A stretch of 64,000 nt of DNA from the NCBI GenBank assembly GCA_025059945.1, contig JANXDC010000005.1, forward strand, positions 62,001-126,000. Direction: 5' to 3'. The stretch is from Bacteroidota bacterium. Its GTDB lineage: Bacteria > Bacteroidota > Rhodothermia > JANXDC01. Positions 43,589 to 54,370 of this stretch are shown here, in pieces (the stretch's first letter is position 1; every line of letters begins with the position of its first letter). The position numbers and the translations under genes are program-made. Below the pieces are notes generated by a model. It had not been told where the DNA came from, searched no databases, and saw only the letters and a program-made list of their open reading frames with translations.

Positions 43589-44365
43589 TTAAACGTTCGA
43601 CGCCACAGGGAGCCGAAAGCCACCTTTTAGCCCTAGAAAGGCCTTCTTCGCAGGCACCTCTGGAGCTCGGTTGACCGAGACCCACCCCGCGTATCGCAGG
43701 GCCAGATGCGCCCCCCATTGCAGGAAGAAGAGTGGGCGGGGTGCGAAATCCATCACCTCGGCGCGTGTGCTGCGCGCTAGCAGCGCCTGGCGCAACTCCT
43801 CGGCAGTACGGCCCGGAAAATACGTGGCCGCCGATCCGATCAGGGATAGCAGATGGGCGTCGCTGCTGCTGATGGGCGCCAGGGGCCATCGCATGCGCTG
43901 TAGGGTTGCGTGGGCGATCTCGTTTTGCCGCTGGCTGTTGGCGCTGGAGTTGAATACCTCCATGCCCACGATGAAGGGGGCCACGTCCGGCTCCTGAAGC
44001 ACCCGCTGGATGGTCCCAAAGCGCACGCTATAGCGGCTCTGACCCGGGTGCGGGATAATGCACAACCCCCCCTCATCGCGCACCCACCGCACCGTATCGC
44101 CTAAAGAAAGCCCGGCAGGGGGGGTGCGGTACACGAAAAGCGCCAGCAGATGCCCCTCCGCCGTGGACACCTCGCTTCCCGGAACGACTTGTAGCCCATA
44201 GGCCGGAGCCAGAGACAACGCTTCCAGAGAAGCTCGGATCTCATCATGATCCGTGATCGCAACAACGTCCAGGCCGACCTCTGCAGCCCGTTTGAGCACG
44301 GCCCGTACTGTGCTGGTGCCATCCAGGCTATAGATCGTATGGATATGCAGGTCGGCTAAACCCAT
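43589..44365 (-). CDS. PHP-domain metal-dependent phosphoesterase
   Basis: A 258-residue PHP-family protein. The N-terminal metal motif is ADLHIHTIYSLDGTS, the second is VVAITDHDEIRAS, followed by the Glu in VVPGSEVSTAEGHLLAL, CIIPHPG, and the late Asp-His in ISSSDAHLL. The metal site is thus complete. It is probably a phosphatase or nuclease acting on a small nucleotide or RNA; many relatives (YciV/RnaAM) are 3'-5' RNA exonucleases or phosphatases. It is transcribed divergently from the tryptophan operon and converges with tRNA-Leu. Confidence 0.85.
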   Translation of the reverse strand: MGLADLHIHTIYSLDGTSTVRAVLKRAAEVGLDVVAITDHDEIRASLEALSLAPAYGLQVVPGSEVSTAEGHLLALFVYRTPPAGLSLGDTVRWVRDEGGLCIIPHPGQSRYSVRFGTIQRVLQEPDVAPFIVGMEVFNSSANSQRQNEIAHATLQRMRWPLAPISSSDAHLLSLIGSAATYFPGRTAEELRQALLARSTRAEVMDFAPRPLFFLQWGAHLALRYAGWVSVNRAPEVPAKKAFLGLKGGFRLPVASNV

Positions 44366-44492
44366 CGGCGCACCCGCTCTAGTCCCAATACGCCCGCCAA
44401 AAAAGCGTTCCCGGGTTAAGCCTCGATAAAGGCGACATTAAAAAATCACGCTATAGGGCGCGGTTGTTTACTTATCGACGCGTGCAGTGCCC

Positions 44493-44524
44493 TTGACTGC
44501 TCTACCGTGCTCTCCGTATACTTG
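44493..44524 (+). promoter_or_regulatory. Promoter of the tryptophan operon
   Basis: TTGACT (44493-44498) and TATACTTG (44517-44524) lie 18 bases apart counted as a -35/-10 pair, or TTG-N21-TATACTTG in the Bacteroidota pattern (one mismatch to TAnnTTTG). Transcription would begin near 44530, giving a leader of about 190 bases before trpE. Confidence 0.65.
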
Positions 44525-44566
44525 CTTTTGAGCCTGTAACGGGCATACAGAAAGGGGTTTGCCACG

Positions 44567-44650
44567 ATGCGGCGTACGCATATCGCCCATAGCGGGTGGT
44601 GGTGGCTCTGGTTCGGGCCCCGGACCGGTGGGCGGATATGCTGCGCATAA
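44567..44650 (+). CDS. trpL: Tryptophan operon leader peptide (27 aa)
   Basis: A 27-codon frame from ATG 44567 to TAA 44648-44650, preceded nine bases upstream by GGGG of AAAGGGG. It begins MRRTHIAHSG and then has four Trp codons: three in a row (44597-44605), one Leu codon, and another Trp (44609-44611). The chance of WWWLW in such a short frame directly ahead of trpE is low. The peptide itself should have no function; the ribosome's position on it does. If charged tRNA-Trp is scarce, the ribosome stalls in 44597-44611 and frees the antiterminator arm. The stop lies between the antiterminator arm (44623-44634) and the terminator arm (from 44670). Confidence 0.85.
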   Translation: MRRTHIAHSGWWWLWFGPRTGGRICCA

Positions 44651-44706
44651 TCGAGAAAGGTCTCTTACGAAAACGCCCACCGGTCTCCGGTGGGCGTTTT
44701 CGCTTT
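44580..44706 (+). promoter_or_regulatory. Transcription attenuator of the tryptophan operon
   Basis: Four pairing segments are visible. Segment 1 (44580-44589, ATATCGCCCA) can pair with 44629-44639 (one bulged G), enclosing the Trp codons. Segment 2 (44623-44634, GACCGGTGGGCG) is perfectly complementary over 12 bases to segment 3 (44674-44685). Segment 3 lies inside the terminator and also pairs with segment 4 (44687-44700). So 1:2 and 3:4 (terminated) compete with 2:3 (read-through). A stalled ribosome at the Trp codons blocks segment 1; a ribosome at the TAA covers part of segment 2. This is the classical ribosome-mediated attenuation layout. Confidence 0.8.
44670..44706 (+). terminator. 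Attenuator terminator of the tryptophan operon
   Basis: AAAACGCCCACCGG (44670-44683) pairs perfectly with CCGGTGGGCGTTTT (44687-44700) around a TCT loop. The ten-pair GC core is followed by TTTTCGCTTT. trpE begins 12 bases after the hairpin region. It serves as the off state of the attenuator. Confidence 0.85.
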
Positions 44707-44717
44707 AAGAGAAAGCC

Positions 44718-46181
44718 ATGGTGGAGCAAGGCGCTAGCCGCTACAGGCGGCTTTTCATTCGGGCCCTCGCGGCGGATCTGCTGAGCCCCGTTTCGGCCTA
44801 CCTGAGGCTTCGAAGGCAGGGGGCGCTTTCCTTTCTTTTGGAGTCCGTAGAGGGCGGAGAGCGACTGGGTCGGTACTCCTTCATCGGATGCGAGCCCATA
44901 GGATGGCTGCGCTCGCAGCGGGGGCGCGTGCGCTGGACGACGTCCGAAGCCGAAGAAGAGAGCCCGGATGTTTTCCGGGCCCTGGAAGCCCTTGTCGCCG
45001 CCGCTGGCCTTCCGGCTCAAGAGACAGATGGAAGCGCGCTGCCGCGCTTCTCCGGTGGCGCGGTGGGCTATATCGGCTACGAGGCTGTGCGACACATAGA
45101 ACGCCTTCCGGAGCCCAAACCGGCCCCGTTTGCGATCCCGGAGGCTTGCTTTGGACTGTACGACACCCTGGTGGCCTTTGACCACGTTCAGAGGCGGCTG
45201 CTTCTGTTGACCTATGCACAGGATCAGCTCCAGGCGCAGCGGCGGCTGCGCGCGCTGGAGGAACGGCTGCGACGGCCGGCCCCGGAGGAAATCGATAAGC
45301 CGGCCCCTTTTATGCTGCTGGATCGCGCACCTACCAGCAACCAAAGCCGCGAGGCGTTCGAGGCCGCCGTGCGGCGGGCGCTTGCTTACATCGAGGCCGG
45401 GGACGTATTTCAGGTCGTGCTCAGCCAGCGCTGGGGGATCCGATACACGGGCGATCCCTTCCAGGTCTACCGGGCCCTGCGCATCATCAACCCCTCTCCC
45501 TACTTGTTTTACCTGGACTTTGGGGACTTCGCCGTATTTGGATCTTCTCCAGAGGTCCTGGTGCGCGTCGAGGGCTGTCGAGCTGAGCTGTTGCCCATAG
45601 CCGGCACGCGAAGGCGAGGCCGCGATCCGGAGGAGGACGCCGCGCTGGAGCGCGAGCTGCTTGGCGACCCCAAGGAGCAAGCCGAACACGTGATGCTCGT
45701 CGACTTGGGACGCAACGACCTGGGACGCGTGGCCGAGCCGGGCTCGGTGCGGGTGGAGCGTTACGGCTTTGTGGAGCGCTACTCGCACGTCATGCACTTG
45801 GTCTCGCACGTTACGGCCCGCCTGCGGGCCGAGGTGAGCGCCGTAGAGGCGCTGCGGGCCTGTTTTCCGGCCGGCACCGTAACCGGCGCCCCCAAGGTGC
45901 GCGCTATGGAGATCATACACGAACTCGAACCCGAATCCCGGGGCCCGTACGCGGGCGCCGTGGGATACTTGGATTTGCACGGCAATCTGGATACTTGCAT
46001 CGCAATCCGCACCTTCATCGCCACCCGAGATCGGCTTTTTTATCAGGCGGGGGCCGGCGTGGTGGCCGACTCCCTGCCCGAACGGGAATACGAGGAAACG
46101 CTCGCCAAGGCCCGCGCCCTGGAACGCGCCCTGGCGCTTGCTTCCGCCAACCTGGAGCTATCTGCGATAGAACCGACATAG
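44718..46181 (+). CDS. trpE: Anthranilate synthase component I
   Basis: A 487-residue chorismate-using enzyme that forms anthranilate with the TrpG glutaminase. The N-terminal LSFLLESVEGGERLGRYSFIG contains the LLES motif, which in characterised enzymes binds tryptophan for feedback inhibition. The C-terminal catalytic part has NPSPYLFYLDFGD, LLPIAGTRRRGRDPEED, VDLGRNDLGRV, and the late FPAGTVTGAPKVRAMEII. All are typical of TrpE. It is the first gene after the attenuator and ends 18 bases before trpS. Its start has only a weak AAGAGAAAG ahead of it. Confidence 0.96.
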   Translation: MVEQGASRYRRLFIRALAADLLSPVSAYLRLRRQGALSFLLESVEGGERLGRYSFIGCEPIGWLRSQRGRVRWTTSEAEEESPDVFRALEALVAAAGLPAQETDGSALPRFSGGAVGYIGYEAVRHIERLPEPKPAPFAIPEACFGLYDTLVAFDHVQRRLLLLTYAQDQLQAQRRLRALEERLRRPAPEEIDKPAPFMLLDRAPTSNQSREAFEAAVRRALAYIEAGDVFQVVLSQRWGIRYTGDPFQVYRALRIINPSPYLFYLDFGDFAVFGSSPEVLVRVEGCRAELLPIAGTRRRGRDPEEDAALERELLGDPKEQAEHVMLVDLGRNDLGRVAEPGSVRVERYGFVERYSHVMHLVSHVTARLRAEVSAVEALRACFPAGTVTGAPKVRAMEIIHELEPESRGPYAGAVGYLDLHGNLDTCIAIRTFIATRDRLFYQAGAGVVADSLPEREYEETLAKARALERALALASANLELSAIEPT

Positions 46182-46199: not shown

Positions 46200-47255
46200 A
46201 TGCGCACCGCGACCGATCACGTGCAAGAGTTAGTGCCCCATCTGCCCAAGGGGCGCGTGATCTTGTCCGGCATCCAGCCCTCAGGCCGTCTGCATATCGG
46301 CAACTACTTTGGGGCCATTCGCCAACATCTGGCCTTCCAATACGAAAACCGCGCCTTCTACTTCATTGCCAACTATCATGCGCTGACCTCGATGCAGGAT
46401 CGGGCGCTGTTGGAGCGCTATACGCTAGATGTGGCCCTAGACTACCTGGCCCTGGGCCTGGACCCCGAACGGGCTACCTTCTTTCTGCAAAGCGACGTGC
46501 CGCAGGTGACGGAGCTAGCCTGGATTTTCAGCTGCCTTGTGCCCGTGAGCCTGCTCGAAAAGGGGGTCTCTTATAAGGACAAGATCGCCAAGGGGCTATC
46601 GCCGGTGGCAGGGCTGCTGACATACCCCGTTTTGCAAGCGGCCGACATTTTGATCTACGGAGCAGAGCTCGTGCCCGTGGGACAAGATCAGAAGCAGCAT
46701 CTGGAATTTGCGCGCGACATCGCGCAGAAGTTCAACCATCTTTACGGGGAGCTGTTGAAGCTTCCGGAGCCTTACATCCATCCCGATGTGGCCGTCGTGC
46801 CGGGTATCGACGGGCAGAAGATGTCTAAGTCCTACGGCAACACGATCGAGATCTTCGCCTCTGGGCCGGCCCTGCGCAAGCGCATCATGAGCATCGTCAC
46901 GGACTCCACGCCTCTGGAGGCCCCCAAAGACCCGGATACCTGCACCGTTTTCGCGCTGCTGAAACTGTTCGCCACCCCGGAAGAGCTAGCCGAGATCCGC
47001 AAGGCCTATCTACGAGGGGGATACGGCTACGGACAGGCCAAGGAGCGCCTATATACGCTCATGGAGCATTACTTCGCCGAGGCCCGAGAGCGGCGCCTGT
47101 ACTGGGAGGCCCACCTGGATGAAGTCCGGGACATCTTGCGGGAAGGCGGACGCCGGGCGCGCGAGGTGGCCGAAGAGCTCATGGAGCGGGTGCGGCAGGC
47201 CACGGGCCTGTTGACGACCTATAGCTCGGTCTTCGCCACAAGGAACGAACCATGA
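46200..47255 (+). CDS. trpS: Tryptophanyl-tRNA synthetase
   Basis: A 351-residue class I synthetase charging tRNA-Trp. The HIGH-type motif is QPSGRLHIGNYFGA near residues 25-38. The KMSKS motif is DGQKMSKSYGN near 201-211, and VGQDQKQHLEFARDIA binds the substrates. All active-site elements are present. It lies between trpE and trpG, overlapping trpG by four bases, so it is under the tryptophan attenuator. This placement is unusual, because trpS is normally elsewhere on the chromosome. It couples synthesis of the charging enzyme to the supply of charged tRNA. Confidence 0.95.
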   Translation: MRTATDHVQELVPHLPKGRVILSGIQPSGRLHIGNYFGAIRQHLAFQYENRAFYFIANYHALTSMQDRALLERYTLDVALDYLALGLDPERATFFLQSDVPQVTELAWIFSCLVPVSLLEKGVSYKDKIAKGLSPVAGLLTYPVLQAADILIYGAELVPVGQDQKQHLEFARDIAQKFNHLYGELLKLPEPYIHPDVAVVPGIDGQKMSKSYGNTIEIFASGPALRKRIMSIVTDSTPLEAPKDPDTCTVFALLKLFATPEELAEIRKAYLRGGYGYGQAKERLYTLMEHYFAEARERRLYWEAHLDEVRDILREGGRRAREVAEELMERVRQATGLLTTYSSVFATRNEP

Positions 47256-47854
47256 TTGTCGTCATCGACAACTACGACTCCTTCACCTACAACCTCGTGC
47301 AGCTGCTTTATGGCGTAACGGACCGAATCCGCGTCTTTCGGAACGACGCCGTAGGCCTGCAGGAGCTTTGGGCGCTTGAGCCGGCCGGGATCGTGATCTC
47401 CCCCGGACCTGGCCGGCCTCATGAGGCCGGGATCACGGAGTCCGTCATCGCCCACTTCGGGGGCCAAGTGCCCATTCTGGGGGTCTGCCTGGGACATCAG
47501 GCCATTGGGGAGGTCTTCGGAGGCCGAGTCGTGCGAGCCCCTCGTCCTCTGCACGGCAAAACGAGCGCGATTTATCACGACGGCCAAACGATCTTCTCAG
47601 GCCTGCCCAACCCGTTTCAGGCGACCCGTTACCATAGCCTCGTCGTTGAACGGGAGAGCCTGCCGCCGGTGTTGCAGATCTCGGCCTGGACCGCCGATGG
47701 GCTCATCATGGGGCTGCGCCACCGATACTGGCCCATAGAGGGGGTGCAGTTCCACCCGGAATCCGTGCTGACACAGGTAGGGGCCCAACTTGTGCAGCGC
47801 TGGGCGGCCCAGGTGCTGCGCGATTGGGCCTGCGCGCAGGAGAGGCCGTCATGA
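47252..47854 (+). CDS. trpG: Anthranilate synthase glutaminase component II
   Basis: A 200-residue class I glutamine amidotransferase that supplies ammonia to TrpE. The catalytic Cys is in GVCLGHQAIGEVFGG (Cys about 79) and the His-Glu pair in VQFHPESVLTQVG near 168-170. IVISPGPGRPHEAGI is the family N-terminal motif. It may also serve para-aminobenzoate synthesis (PabA), as in many bacteria, but no pabB lies here. It overlaps trpS and trpD by four bases each. Confidence 0.95.
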   Translation: MIVVIDNYDSFTYNLVQLLYGVTDRIRVFRNDAVGLQELWALEPAGIVISPGPGRPHEAGITESVIAHFGGQVPILGVCLGHQAIGEVFGGRVVRAPRPLHGKTSAIYHDGQTIFSGLPNPFQATRYHSLVVERESLPPVLQISAWTADGLIMGLRHRYWPIEGVQFHPESVLTQVGAQLVQRWAAQVLRDWACAQERPS

Positions 47855-48885
47855 ACCCAGTATCCCCGCTGCGCTTGGCCTTGGGCCGGTTGGCTGAGGG
47901 GCAGTCGCTGGGGCGAGAGCTAGCCCGGGCCGCTTTGCAGCAGATCATCGAGGGGCAGGGGACAGAACTCGAAACAGCCGCCCTGCTTTTGGGCCTGCGC
48001 GCGCGAGGCGAAACCTTGGAGGAGCTAGTGGCTTTTGTGGAGGTGATGCGCCAAGCCGCCGTGCCCATTCCGTTTGAACACCCCCAGCTGGTGGACGTCT
48101 GCGGCACCGGAGGCGACAACGCCGAAACCCGAAACATCTCCACGGCCGTAGCCTTCGTGGTGGCCGGAGCGGGCGTGCCCGTGGCCAAACACGGCAATCG
48201 GGGCGTTTCCAGCCGCTCCGGATCGGCCGACGTGCTGGAGGCCTTAGGAGTGCCCATTGAGCTGGAACCCGAGGAGGCGTCCTGGGCCCTTCAAGAGCAC
48301 GGGATGGCGTTTCTGTTCGCGCCCCGCTACCATCCGGCCATGCGGCAGGTGGCGCCCGTGCGACGTGCCCTGGGCGTGCGCACCTGCTTCAACCTCATGG
48401 GCCCCCTGCTTAACCCCGCCCCCGTGCGGCGGCAGCTCATAGGGGCCTTTTCGCACGAGGCCGCACAGCAGATCTTGGAGGTAGCCGTCCTGTTGGGATG
48501 GGAGCACATTCTGGTCGTACACAGCGATGAGGGCTGGGATGAGCTCTCCGTCTGCGCCCCCACGACGGTTTACGAATACCGCTCCGGACAGGGCAAGCGT
48601 ATCTACCGGATAAGCCCGGAGGACCTGGGACTAGAGCGCAGCGCCCCAGAGGCCCTTCGGGGCGGCTCGCCCCAGGAGAACGCCCGCGCCCTGGCTGCTT
48701 TGTTGGAAGGAGAACCCGGGCCCTACCGCGATGCGGTGCTCTTGAACGCAGCTTTCGCCCTCTACGCGTCGGGGGCGGCTGAAGACCCCACTCGAGGCCT
48801 AGAGCTAGCCCGAGATAGCCTCGAGAGCGGTCGCGCCTGGGCCGTGCTGGAAGCGTTGCGTCGGATAAGGGAAAAGTCCGTATGA
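47851..48885 (+). CDS. trpD: Anthranilate phosphoribosyltransferase
   Basis: A 344-residue type III phosphoribosyltransferase that joins anthranilate and PRPP. The PRPP loop is VDVCGTGGDNAETRNIST near residues 81-98, with VAKHGNRGVSSRSGSADVLE and LMGPLLNPAPVRRQLIG also typical. The ATG at 47851 overlaps the trpG stop in an ATGA junction; an earlier in-frame start inside trpG was rejected. It overlaps trpC at the other end. Confidence 0.95.
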   Translation: MNPVSPLRLALGRLAEGQSLGRELARAALQQIIEGQGTELETAALLLGLRARGETLEELVAFVEVMRQAAVPIPFEHPQLVDVCGTGGDNAETRNISTAVAFVVAGAGVPVAKHGNRGVSSRSGSADVLEALGVPIELEPEEASWALQEHGMAFLFAPRYHPAMRQVAPVRRALGVRTCFNLMGPLLNPAPVRRQLIGAFSHEAAQQILEVAVLLGWEHILVVHSDEGWDELSVCAPTTVYEYRSGQGKRIYRISPEDLGLERSAPEALRGGSPQENARALAALLEGEPGPYRDAVLLNAAFALYASGAAEDPTRGLELARDSLESGRAWAVLEALRRIREKSV

Positions 48886-49718
48886 ACATCTTGGAACGCA
48901 TCTTGGAGCGTACGCGGGCGGATCTAGCGGAGCGCAAACGGCGCTACACGCGCGCCTACCTGGAGTCCATGCCCTATTTTGGAGGTCCGATCCTGGACCT
49001 AGAGCGGGCGCTGCGCCAAAACGGGCCCATGGCCCTGATCGCCGAAATCAAGCCTGCTTCCCCCTCGGCCGGCCGGATCCGAAGCGCTCCGGACGTAGTC
49101 TCCATAGCCACGAGCTACCGCCTGGCCGGAGCCGCGGCGCTTTCGGTGCTCACCGAGGAGCCCTTCTTCGGGGGGTCTTTGGAAAACCTGCGACGGATCC
49201 GGCCCTGGGTGGATGTCCCGTTGATCCGCAAGGACTTCATCATCGATGAATTCCAGCTCTACGAGGCGCGCGCCTTCGGAGCGGACGCCGTGCTGCTGAT
49301 CGCGTCCATCTTGGACCGCTATCAGCTTCAAGACCTTCTGCAGGCCGCCCGCGGCCTGGGGCTGGGCGTGCTTCTGGAGCTATACTCCCAGGAGGAGTTG
49401 GAGCGGGTGGACTTTGACGCCGTTCGCTTAATTGGCGTCAACAACCGAGACCTGCGCACCTTTGCGGTGGACTTGCGGCACTCGGTGGAGATCCTGGCCC
49501 ACGTGCCCACGCATGTGCTGAAAGTCTCCGAGTCCGGTATTCGCTCGGCCGATGATCTATGGTTTCTCTACCAGCATAACGTTGAAGCCGCCTTGATCGG
49601 GGAATCGCTTATGCGCGCGCCCGACCCTGGCGAGGCGCTCTACCGTCTGCGTCATGACTTCTATGAGCGGCTACGGCAAACCTCGGCTGAAAGTTTGCGG
49701 CATTACGTGCTTGGATGA
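48882..49718 (+). CDS. trpC: Indole-3-glycerol-phosphate synthase
   Basis: A 278-residue TIM-barrel enzyme closing the indole ring. The substrate loop is LIAEIKPASPSAGRIR near residue 50. Catalytic Lys and Glu lie in LIRKDFIIDEFQLYEARA and LLELYSQEELERVDFD. INNRDLRTF and SESGIRSADDLWFL follow. It is monofunctional, without the fused TrpF of some enterobacteria. Its last 56 bases overlap the trpF start in another frame. Confidence 0.95.
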   Translation: MNILERILERTRADLAERKRRYTRAYLESMPYFGGPILDLERALRQNGPMALIAEIKPASPSAGRIRSAPDVVSIATSYRLAGAAALSVLTEEPFFGGSLENLRRIRPWVDVPLIRKDFIIDEFQLYEARAFGADAVLLIASILDRYQLQDLLQAARGLGLGVLLELYSQEELERVDFDAVRLIGVNNRDLRTFAVDLRHSVEILAHVPTHVLKVSESGIRSADDLWFLYQHNVEAALIGESLMRAPDPGEALYRLRHDFYERLRQTSAESLRHYVLG

Positions 49719-50331
49719 CGCCCGGCTGGTGGCCGCTGGGGGAGCCGATTACTTGGGGTTCATCTTCTACCCCCAAAGCCCTCGCTACGTGGAGCCGGAG
49801 CGGGTCCGGGAGATCTTGGCCTGGGTGCACGGCCCAGAACCCGTGGGCGTGTTCGTAAACGCCGACCTCGAGGCGATCCTGGAGATCACCCGCGCAACAG
49901 GCATCCGACTGGTGCAACTGCATGGGCTAGAGCCCCCCGAGCTGCTGTATGCGTTGCGCGCTCGAGGGCTGCGGGTGATCAAGGCCATAGCCGTAGCCCA
50001 CGATGCCAGCATAGAGCAAATCCAGAAGCTGGCCGAACCCTATCGGGGCGCGGCGGATTACCTGCTGCTGGATAGCTTCGATCATAACCTGTGGGGTGGC
50101 ACGGGGCACACCTTCAACTGGCGCCTGGCGCGGGCGTTGGCCCAAGAAACACCCCTGTTTCTGGCTGGAGGGATCGGCCCCGATAACCTTGTCCTGGCCG
50201 CCCAAACCGTGCGGCCCTTCGCGCTAGACGTCAACAGCCGTCTGGAGGTTGCACCGGGCCGCAAGGACGGCGCCAAACTGCAGGCGCTCTTTGCCGCTTG
50301 GTCCGCCTTAGAGGCCCAGGAGCACGTCTAA
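49663..50331 (+). CDS. trpF: Phosphoribosylanthranilate isomerase
   Basis: A 222-residue TIM-barrel isomerase making CdRP. The N-terminal LKVCGITCLDDARL holds the catalytic Cys, and LVQLHGLEPPELLYAL the later motif. DSFDHNLWGGTGHTFNW holds the active Asp. PFALDVNSRLEVAPGRKDG ends the phosphate-binding region. I chose the ATG at 49663, 56 bases inside trpC; the ATG at 49654 is also possible. No start lies downstream of the trpC stop that would keep the conserved CGIT strand, so the long overlap is real. Confidence 0.93.
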   Translation: MSGYGKPRLKVCGITCLDDARLVAAGGADYLGFIFYPQSPRYVEPERVREILAWVHGPEPVGVFVNADLEAILEITRATGIRLVQLHGLEPPELLYALRARGLRVIKAIAVAHDASIEQIQKLAEPYRGAADYLLLDSFDHNLWGGTGHTFNWRLARALAQETPLFLAGGIGPDNLVLAAQTVRPFALDVNSRLEVAPGRKDGAKLQALFAAWSALEAQEHV

Positions 50332-51561
50332 ATGGAGCCCGTTCAAGCTGTGCTTGCGCCGCAGCCCGACGCCCGAGGGCGGTTCGGTCCCTACGGAGGT
50401 CGGTTTGTGCCCGAGACGCTCATGCCGGCCCTCGAGGAGTTGGAAGCCGCCTATCGAGAGGCCCGTCAAGATCCGGCCTTCTGGCAGGCCTATCGGTCGC
50501 TTTTGGCCGAGTACGTAGGCCGGCCCACCCCGCTTACGTATGCCGAGCGCCTGAGCGCCCACTTTGGACGGGGGCGCATATACCTCAAGCGGGAGGACCT
50601 CTGCCATACGGGCGCGCACAAGATCAACAACGCCTTAGGGCAGGTGCTTCTGGCCCTGCGCATGGGCAAACGCCGCATTCTGGCCGAGACCGGAGCCGGG
50701 CAGCACGGGGTGGCCACGGCCACGGCCTGCGCCCGATTCGGCCTGGAGTGCGTCGTCTATATGGGCGCGCTCGATATGCGCCGGCAGCGCCTGAACGTGG
50801 AGCGCATGCGCTTGCTCGGGGCCGAAGTACGGGCCGTCTCGACCGGCACCGGCACTCTAAAAGACGCCATCAACGAGGCCATCCGGGACTGGGTCACGAA
50901 CGTGCGCACGACGTTTTACGTGATCGGCTCCGTGGTCGGCCCTCATCCGTATCCCCTGCTCGTGCGGGATTTTCAGCGCATCATCGGCGATGAGGTGCGG
51001 GATCAACTTCTGGCCCGCGAGGGACGGCTGCCCACGCACCTGGTCGCTTGCGTAGGCGGGGGATCAAACGCGATCGGGCTCTTTTACCCCTTTCTGGCGG
51101 AGCCCTCCGTGCGGCTTTACGGGGTCGAGGCCGCGGGACTGGGGCTGGACACGGACAAAACGGCCGCCACGCTCAGCCGCGGCCGCCCTGGGGTCCTGCA
51201 TGGCGCCTATACGTACGCGCTGCAAACCCCAGATGGGCAAATTCAGCCCGCTTACTCCCTCTCGGCGGGGCTAGACTATCCCGGCGTGGGACCCGAGCAC
51301 AGCTACCTGCGCGACGTCGGGCGCGTGCGCTATGAGGCCGTAACGGACGCCGAAGCCCTAGAGGGGGTGCGCTTGTTGACGCGGCTTGAGGGGATTCTGC
51401 CCGCGCTAGAGACAGCGCACGCCGTGGCGTTTCTCCGCAAGCTCATGCCCGAAACAAGCCCCGAAGACCTGATCGTGCTTAACTGCTCCGGCCGCGGGGA
51501 CAAGGACATGACCACGCTTATGGAGGCCTCGGGAGGCGACAAGGAGCCTGCGCATGCATGA
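50332..51561 (+). CDS. trpB: Tryptophan synthase beta chain
   Basis: A 409-residue PLP enzyme that makes tryptophan from indole and serine. The PLP Lys is in [17 protein letters not shown] near residue 97. [33 protein letters not shown] and [17 protein letters not shown] (phosphate loop) are the usual motifs. The start follows the trpF stop directly (TAAATG). It overlaps trpA by eight bases, consistent with 1:1 translation of the alpha and beta chains. Confidence 0.97.
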
Positions 51562-52369
51562 AGTCGCCCCAAACCGCCTGCAGGAGCTGTTTCGACGGCG
51601 CCGTCCGGTGCTGGGCCTGTACGTTATGGCCGGCCTTCCGGAGCCAGAGGCCGCGCTACCGCTTTGGCATGCGCTGGTTGAAGCCGGCGCCGATTTTCTG
51701 GAAATCGGCGCCCCCTTTAGCGACCCTCTGGCCGACGGCCCCACGATCCAGCGCGCCAGCCAGCGCGCCCTCGCCTACGGAATCGATCTATCCTGGATTC
51801 TGGAGTGCGTGCACGCCTTCCGTCGGCGCGATCCGCACACTCCTCTGGTGCTCATGGGCTATCTCAACCCCATCTTGGCTTACGGGGTAGAGGCGTTTGC
51901 GCACGCTGCGCGCGCCTCAGGCCTTGACGGACTGATCATCCCGGACTTACCCCTCGAAGAACGCCCTTGGGTCGGGGAGGCTTTCGATCGTGCGGGCCTG
52001 AACCTGGTGCTGCTGGCGGCCCCCACCTCATCGGCGGATCGGCTGCGGCAGATCGACGGGCTCAGCCGGGGCTTTGTGTACGCCGTCTCGATTACGGGCG
52101 TAACGGGGGCGCGAACCGGAGTGGCGGAGCAGGCGCGGGCTTTTCTGGAGCGGGCGCGTCAGCTGGTGCGGCGCAACCCCCTGCTGGTGGGCTTCGGCAT
52201 CGCGACCCCGGAGGACGCCGGCGCTATGCTGGAGTACGCCGACGGGATCATCGTCGGAAGCGCCTTGGTAGAACGCCTAGAGCGCGCCTATCCCAGCCCC
52301 GACTGGCTGGAGCAGCTCATCGCGTGGGTGCGCGCGCTTAAGGCGGGGATGAGCGTTCATGCCGCGTAG
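51554..52369 (+). CDS. trpA: Tryptophan synthase alpha chain
   Basis: A 271-residue TIM-barrel subunit that releases indole from indole-glycerol phosphate. The active-site Glu is in [21 protein letters not shown] near residue 52 and the Asp follows in the same stretch. [28 protein letters not shown] and the phosphate loops [10 protein letters not shown] and [13 protein letters not shown] are present. It overlaps trpB by eight bases and the DUF4837 gene by eleven. Confidence 0.96.
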
Positions 52370-53447
52370 CGAGCTCCTTCTGCCCCTCGTCCTTTTGGGC
52401 GCGGCCTGCCGCCTGAGTCCCGCGGAGTTTCTCCCCCCCTCGGTCGGCAGGCCGGGACTTGTGACGATCGCCATGGATTCGGCGGCCTGGGCTGGCCCGC
52501 TGGGTGAGGCCGTTCGCGAAGTCTTCGGGGGCGATGTCGAAACGCTCCCGCAGCCGGAACCGTGGTTTGACCTGGCCTTTAAGGCCTTACGCGATCAGGC
52601 CGCTTTTGAGCGGCTCAAACGCGATCGGAACATCGTCTTCGTTGCGCCTCTGGACGGCCCCACCCCTGCAAGTGCCTTTATAAGAGCGCGCCTGGACTCG
52701 GCCGTGCAGGCTTACGTGCGGGCCGGCAATCCTCTGAGCGTGAGCCGCCAAAACCTATGGGCCCAGGATCAGCAGGTGCTCTACCTGACGGCGGCCGGCG
52801 AGCAGGATCTGATCCGGTTTGTGCGCGAAAAGGCCCCAGAACTGCGCGCGCTCTTTGACCGCGTCGAGCGCACCCGGACTGAACAGGATCTTTTCCGCAG
52901 AGCTGAACAAGTAGCCTTGGCCGATAGCCTGCTGAGGCGCCACGGCTGGCGCGTGCGCATCCAACACGATTACCTGATCGCCAAAGACACGGCGAACTTC
53001 GTCTGGGTCCGACGCCTGCTTCCCGATAACCAGCGGTGGTTTTTCGTCTGGTGGCGTGATCGCGCCCGGCCCGATCAGATCACGCCGGCCTGGATCCTGC
53101 GCGTGCGCGACAGCCTCACGCAGCGTCACCTGCGGGGCAAATACGAGGACAGCTACGTCACGCTTGAGCGCCGCCGGCCTGTGCAACAGGCCGTGATCAA
53201 CTTTCATGGCCGCTTCGCCTACGAAAGCCGGGGCCTTTGGCGCATGACCGGCGACGCCATGGGCGGCCCCTTTGTGAACATCACGTTCTTTGACCCCGGA
53301 CAGCAGCGCATCTACATGCTCGACGGCTCGGTCTTCGCCCCGCGCTACGATAAGCGGGAGTTTCTGCGCCAAATGGAGGCCATCCTATACACGTTTCGCA
53401 CCCAAGCGGAGCTAAACTCGGCATCTAAACGGGAGCCCGGCTCATGA
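52359..53447 (+). CDS. DUF4837 family lipoprotein
   Basis: A 362-residue lipoprotein. Its signal peptide ends in VLLGAAC (Cys 18). The mature protein has the DUF4837 pattern: a domain starting [20 protein letters not shown], then [20 protein letters not shown], followed by a duplicated C-terminal half with [13 protein letters not shown] and [19 protein letters not shown]. It should sit in the outer or inner membrane; its function is not known. The start overlaps trpA by eleven bases and its stop overlaps hisG by four, so it is inside the tryptophan transcript, a placement without obvious reason. Confidence 0.75.
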
Positions 53448-54370
53448 GCAGCACCCAAACAGCGATGCAGCGTTTTCTGGCCGTGGAGCCCAACGGCGCT
53501 CCAAAGCTTCGGCTCGGCCTTCCCAAGGGCAGCTTACAACAAGCCACCTTGACGCTGCTGGCCAAAGCGGGTTTCGGATTTTATGTGCAGGAGCGCTCCT
53601 ACTTCCCCGTATCCGAAGACGAGGAGATCACGGCCATGCTCGTGCGGGCCCAAGAGATGGCCCGCTACGTCTCCCTAGGGCTCTTCGACGCCGGCTTTAC
53701 AGGCAAAGACTGGGTCCTAGAGACCGGCGCCGACGTGGTGGTCGTAGCCGACCTCATCTATTCTAAAACGAGCTTCCGGCCTGTGCGCTGGGTTCTGGCC
53801 GTGCCTGAGGATTCTCCGATCCAAAGCGTCCACAACCTGCAGGGCAAACGCATCGCTACGGAGGTGGTCAACATCACGCGCAGGTGGCTTGCCGAACGCG
53901 GCATCGAGGCGGAAGTGGAGTTCTCTTGGGGCGCTACGGAGGTAAAGGCCCCGTATTTGGCCGATGCCATCGTGGAGGTGACGGAGACCGGCACCTCCCT
54001 CAAGGCCAACAAGCTCCGCATCGTGGACGTGGTGCTGGAATCCAATACGCAACTTATCGCCAGCCACTTCGCCTGGGCCGATCCCTGGAAGCGGCAGAAG
54101 ATCGAAAACCTAGCCCTCCTGGTCCAGGGCGCCATTTTAGCCGAGGGCAAAGTGGGGCTGAAGCTCAACTGCCGACGCGAAGACGTTCCCCAAATCGTCT
54201 CCATTTTGCCCTCCCTGCGCAACCCCACAATCGCGGACTTGGCCCTGCCCGGCTGGGTGGCCGTAGAGACGATCATAGACGAGGCGCTTGTGCGTCAGCT
54301 CATTCCGGAACTGAAACGCCGGGGCGCAGAGGGGATCATCGAATATCCGCTCAACAAGATCATCCCCTAA
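53444..54370 (+). CDS. hisG: ATP phosphoribosyltransferase, long form (HisG)
   Basis: A 308-residue first enzyme of histidine synthesis, joining ATP and PRPP. The N-terminal [18 protein letters not shown] is diagnostic. [20 protein letters not shown] and the PRPP-binding [20 protein letters not shown] follow. The C-terminal 75 residues ([20 protein letters not shown]) are the regulatory domain, so this is the long homohexameric form that needs no HisZ. Other his genes are not in the window. It is joined to the DUF4837 gene by an ATGA overlap, implying expression from the tryptophan promoter. Confidence 0.95.

Follow-up and report, generated by a model that had tools for sequence, protein, structure and literature searches.

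The 352-bp gap between two divergent genes in the stretch of Bacteroidota DNA analysed here (64,000 nucleotides, hereafter the window) harbors, upstream of trpE, what is almost certainly a ribosome-mediated transcription attenuator that tunes trpE-trpS-trpGDCFBA to the supply of charged tRNA-Trp; an attenuator of this kind is the usual arrangement in the bacterial class to which the window belongs, and not a rarity. The anatomy of the element, its conservation and its pairing energies were determined directly, and use of its promoter, translation of its leader peptide, ribosome stalling, termination and a response to tryptophan are the behavior that those observations predict. A first-pass annotation, made from the window alone, had proposed leader-peptide attenuation as the mechanism, and that proposal is now strongly supported by the anatomy, by conservation in the genus and the class, by joint changes in the pairing arms, and by the lack of any match to TrpR or TRAP in the genome.

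The leader is followed by an operon of tightly packed genes on the plus strand, in the order trpE-trpS-trpG-D-C-F-B-A and then a gene for a DUF4837 protein and hisG (Table 1). The last two lie 3' of trpA (window positions 52359-54370) and, as the frames of trpA, the DUF4837 gene and hisG overlap, hisG may also respond to the trp attenuator; a distance from trpE to hisG within approximately 10 kb was also seen in families f1, f3, f8 and f11. In nearly all same-class loci examined (L003-L033 and L184-L203 among them), trpS either adjoins trpE or lies no more than about 0.8 kb past its end, so that this synthetase, on which the sensed signal depends, may itself share the attenuator. No T-box RNA was found in the window. 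As a separate observation, two whole genomes (G000 and G001) contain one TrpE/PabB-family match each, whereas two or three are present in most same-class genomes. Neither of the two has an acetolactate synthase large subunit that scores above the curated cut-off; it is possible that genes of the folate branch and of branched-chain synthesis have been lost from both.

Reading of the leader letter by letter confirmed a 27-codon frame with tryptophan at codons 11, 12, 13 and 15, together with the previously described succession, in the right order, of putative promoter, leader peptide, competing arms and terminator hairpin, a promoter-like site having been found once in a scan where 0.2 were expected. 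The TG just after TATACT is also compatible with a Bacteroidota-type -7 box, TATACTTG. The perfect complementarity of segments 2 and 3 over 12 bases was confirmed as well, and two further features were retained with altered extents. The terminator, annotated at first as a perfect 14-pair stem at 44670-44700, indeed possesses that core at those coordinates (44670-44683 paired with 44687-44700), but the stem in fact continues to 16 bp; segment 1, placed initially at 44580-44589, does pair with segment 2, but the complete helix joins 44572-44590 to 44628-44646 and comprises 18 pairs, with bulges at 44577 and 44634. The 16-bp GC-rich hairpin carries TTTTCGCTTT, in which the T-tract amounts to only four consecutive T residues after the GC core, all of them paired within the stem.

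Table 1. Coordinates, strands and supporting evidence for the features of the trp leader and operon (window positions).
Feature	Position	Strand	Basis or remark
PHP-domain gene	43589-44365	minus	far side of leader gap
Promoter-like TTGACT (44493-44498), 18-nt spacer, TATACT (44517-44522)	44493-44522	+	hexamers and spacing identical in KatS3mg041
Shine-Dalgarno-like GAAAGGGG, 9 nt 5' of leader ATG (putative)	44550-44557	+	suggested by sequence
ORF of the leader peptide (27 codons plus stop), MRRTHIAHSGWWWLWFGPRTGGRICCA	44567-44650	+	coding 44567-44647, stop 44648-44650; core conserved in KatS3mg041
Segment 1, partner 44628-44646	44572-44590	+	fold; core CGCCCA conserved in genus and families f3 and f11
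Regulatory Trp codons 11-13 and 15 (TGG TGG TGG CTC TGG)	44597-44611	+	sequence reading
Segment 2 GACCGGTGGGCG, 12-bp antiterminator arm, within leader ORF	44623-44634	+	exact complement of segment 3
Terminator hairpin 3:4, 16 bp, loop TCT, then CTTTAAG	44668-44702	+	sequence, fold
Segment 3 CGCCCACCGGTC, pairs with segment 2; also terminator 5' arm	44674-44685	+	sequence, fold, KatS3mg041
trpE	44718-46181	+	TIGR00564, above cut-off
trpS, tryptophanyl-tRNA synthetase	46200-47255	+	TIGR00233, above cut-off
trpG	47252-47854	+	TIGR00566, above cut-off
trpD (approximate start)	47824-48885	+	TIGR01245
trpC	48882-49718	+	NF001377
trpF (approximate start)	49654-50331	+	PF00697
trpB	50332-51561	+	TIGR00263
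trpA	51554-52369	+	TIGR00262

The predicted fold of 44525-44710 lies 5.8 standard deviations below dinucleotide shuffles, none of 200 being as low. Conformers were computed with a stalled ribosome, the front edge of which was taken as 12 nt past the first base of the A-site codon. With the ribosome on any one of codons 11, 12, 13 or 15, the RNA left free before segment 4 adopted the 2:3 pairing; once it was placed at the stop codon, 3:4 was the sole pairing that could form downstream; and ribosome-free RNA adopted a long 1:2 hairpin together with 3:4. At equilibrium, with all segments present and the ribosome stalled, 3:4 was still favoured (-43 to -53 kcal/mol, against approximately -34 kcal/mol without segment 4). 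Because 3:4 is the more stable pairing once segment 4 is present, the switch must be kinetic, with 2:3 forming first; antitermination in the classical attenuator is likewise assumed to be kinetic. The distance from the last Trp codon to segment 2 is 11 nt in the window and has a median of 14 nt in the class; the class spacing corresponds approximately to the reach of a stalled ribosome, and the 11 nt of the window would also leave segment 2 free. In 89% of class leaders segment 2 falls within the frame of the peptide, and its end precedes the stop codon by a median of 7.5 nt.

In the proposed mechanism, transcription would begin a few bases past 44522, and a ribosome would initiate the 27-codon peptide on the emerging RNA. 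When charged tRNA-Trp is scarce, that ribosome would stall at codons 11-15, covering segment 1 as well as the RNA as far as about 44621; segment 2 would remain free and would pair with segment 3 before segment 4 exists, allowing read-through into trpE. When charged tRNA-Trp is ample, the ribosome would proceed to the stop codon at 44648 and cover part of segment 2, and its release, or a lack of translation altogether, would allow 1:2 to form; with segment 2 either covered or sequestered in this manner, 3:4 would form and transcription would stop near 44700.

The Bacteroidetes bacterium KatS3mg041 (AP024675.1) belongs to the same genus, and its TrpE is 70% identical. Its leader shares with that of the window the segment 1 motif CGCCCA, segment 2 (GGACCGGTGGGCGG), the terminator arms, and both promoter hexamers with their 18-nt spacer, in the midst of intervening sequence that is largely different; its peptide, MxxHTAHGWWWRWSDARTGGRDGRA, retains the core WWWxW. 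When the search was extended to 97 genomes of the same class, the full set of features (a Trp-cluster leader ORF, a terminator and a 2:3 pairing, in the right order) was found upstream of trpE in 74 of them, as compared with two of 97 reverse complements and none of 485 dinucleotide shuffles. The terminator rule of this survey was widened after it had missed the window, such that the T-run was not forced to the end of the stem, and the controls were then rerun; the genomes are related to one another, and the counts therefore describe the spread of the element and not independent origins. A recognisable Trp leader upstream of trpE was not found in family f5 or in most of family f10 (L138, L139 and L142; L022, L114, L117, L124, L130 and L131).

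A covariance model (R1) was derived from 32 leaders, all taken from other class families, with the genus of the window left out and with L158 excluded, a low-GC-type match from the rule-based scan in which the wrong start or ORF had been picked. Applied to the 64 kb of the window, R1 produced a sole significant match at 44567-44698 (20.2 bits, E = 5.3e-7), the next best having an E-value of 0.086. In several genomes the model also recovered leaders that had escaped the rule-based scan, and it matched several leaders that lie outside the class but within the phylum, for which common descent with strong divergence is possible.

Several observations indicate that the arms change jointly. Within family f3, segments 2, 3 and 4 read GCGG/CCGC/GCGG in one genome (G005) and GCAG/CTGC/GCAG in another (G027). 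A MAFFT alignment places segment 2 of the window's genus out of register, so 2:3 was assessed by a swap test in place of pair counts. In this test the 2:3 pairing stood at -16.6 with own arms, as compared with -12.1 when the arms came from other families and -9.1 when they were shuffled. In ten of the 74 genomes the native segment 2 performed no better than the mean of the others, a result attributable to the class-wide motif CCCRCTG that the arms share. Both the Trp codons and the complementarity are present in KatS3mg041 and in 74 of 97 class genomes. The conserved residues that flank the Trp run (HxAH upstream; RTGGR, AVESL or SSG downstream) look explained by the RNA arms that they encode, namely segment 1 in the case of HxAH and segment 2 in the case of RTGGR, AVESL and SSG; no further constraint on the peptide was seen.

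The class leaders share an additional property at their 5' ends, where the DNA preceding the leader ATG reads TTGC, a spacer, TATCTT, and then ATG 5-10 nt further on. The pattern TTG-N14..22-TAnnnT-N3..12-ATG is present in 73 of 78 class leaders (for example L006, L132 and L166), as compared with a mean of 5.6 (maximum 12) after shuffling, a mean of 5.9 (maximum 14) after dinucleotide-keeping shuffling, and 22 of 720 other ATGs (3%) in the same regions. With an ATG so near the -10 box, and a start site 6-7 nt past that box, the mRNA would be leaderless, and the class leader peptides are thus probably translated in that manner. KatS3mg041 fits this pattern (TATACTTGCGCCGGCATG), whereas the window is an exception: 44 nt separate its -10 box from the ATG (44523-44566), and AGAAAGGGG precedes that ATG. 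The Shine-Dalgarno-like stretch is absent from the leaders of relatives, in which there is no room for one. It appears likely, from the approximately 18 families sampled, that the trp attenuator is old in the class and was built with a leaderless peptide, an antiterminator arm within the last codons of that peptide, and coupling of ribosome and polymerase from the first nucleotide, and that the lineage of the window has, since its split from KatS3mg041, come to possess a short 5' untranslated region and a Shine-Dalgarno-like site instead.

One alternative explains the hairpin at 44668-44702 as an ordinary terminator, or as a palindrome that arose by chance, and the Trp-rich frame as an accidental ORF in GC-rich DNA; it is vanishingly improbable. 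Chance ORFs carrying two neighbouring Trp codons do arise in approximately 8% of shuffled regions (39 of 485), and the hairpin went unlisted in a simple terminator scan, because its T-run sits inside the stem; but the flanking genes are divergent and both start at the gap, such that there is no gene for an ordinary terminator to serve, and both the order and the kind of the elements are conserved across the class. It is mainly this conservation, in the survey of 97 genomes and in the match to R1, that rules out chance.

Control exerted mainly at another level, with the ribosome on the leader peptide governing translation or Rho-dependent termination and the hairpin serving only to trim or stabilise the RNA, is also very improbable, despite a weak T-tract and an effect on termination that is a prediction: the same hairpin is followed by longer T-runs in relatives (in KatS3mg041, GGGCGTTTTTT), the three-way complementarity of segments 2, 3 and 4 has been kept through sequence change, and the trpE start lies outside the hairpin. 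A somewhat less remote prospect, although still an unlikely one, is an effect in trans on other mRNAs, alongside attenuation, exerted by the peptide or by the leader RNA once released. Attenuation would indeed set free both a peptide and a short leader RNA, and peTrpL and rnTrpL of Sinorhizobium meliloti provide a precedent (PMC7298713), but the conserved peptide residues appear to be accounted for by the RNA arms, as described above. Transcription attenuation by a translating ribosome thus remains the favored reading.

The trp leader of Escherichia coli combines a leader peptide bearing tandem Trp codons with 1:2, 2:3 and 3:4 pairings that exclude one another and with a terminator before trpE, and its segment 2 is located after the leader stop codon. 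The element of the window shares the first two of these features and, with its hairpin as the predicted terminator, the third, and differs in that its segment 2 lies inside the leader ORF, trpS is part of the operon, and TrpR is absent; the corresponding Rfam model (RF00513, Trp_leader) gave no match in the window. Matches of the leader to other Rfam models at E-values of 0.05-8 (STnc310 and others) were dismissed as terminator look-alikes or chance. Leaderless trpL genes, with the ATG at the start of transcription, have been described in Sinorhizobium meliloti (PMC7298713) and Streptomyces lividans (PMC8079986); these belong to other phyla and resemble what is predicted for most class leaders, but not the window, where the ATG follows the -10 box by 44 nt and a Shine-Dalgarno-like stretch is present.

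The first-pass annotation had considered a complete attenuator noteworthy in a Bacteroidota genome, and this assessment did not survive comparison with earlier work. Although a 2010 paper still described the demonstrated leader-peptide systems as confined to Proteobacteria and Actinobacteria (PMC2965389), a trp peptide leader from Bacteroidota (Bacteroid-trp, RF01692) has been in Rfam since that same year (Weinberg et al. 2010, PMC2864571), a trp leader has been recognised upstream of the Flavobacterium psychrophilum trp operon (PMC6414381), and clues to leader-peptide attenuation before amino-acid operons have been reported in that species (PMC9723704). Trp-cluster leaders were also found here before trpE in 28 of 42 Bacteroidota genomes outside the class (L204, L226, L234, L236, L238 and L240 among the loci), in addition to the 74 of 97 within it. 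RF01692 and the window have in common a leader RNA for a Trp peptide that precedes trp genes in a Bacteroidota host, but the window differs in its high GC content, longer arms, extra segment 1 helix and different peptide. At its gathering threshold, the RF01692 model detected leaders before trpE in two positive controls from other Bacteroidota classes (L229 and L232, with NTWWW-type peptides) and missed several other-class Trp-cluster leaders; searched against 44440-44760 of the window, it gave no match up to E = 10, and the window does not belong to RF01692 as modelled. Among the papers searched, none that names trp attenuation in this class was retrieved. What is new, from sequence, is the predicted leaderless architecture of the class leaders, together with the in-frame position of segment 2 in most of them.

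Leaders of other amino-acid operons were also sought. His-rich short ORFs (for example MKQTLLYISHLHLDVHHAHHGHHHIHVQ) lie upstream of hisG in several same-class genomes (L245, L248, L249, L253, L254, L255 and L270), some of them with the spacing of the trp leaders from -10 box to ATG, and are probable his attenuators; no convincing leader emerged from scans upstream of ilvB.

Attenuation of trp genes through a leader peptide is the rule in an entire class of Bacteroidota and, as far as tested, is invisible to the existing Rfam model, so that many genomes lack annotation of both the switch and its peptide. The predicted leaderless start of 73 of 78 class leaders stands against the 5.5% of mRNAs reported as leaderless in Flavobacterium psychrophilum (PMC9723704), and the class leaders represent a set of natural variants in which leaderless initiation might be studied together with attenuation.
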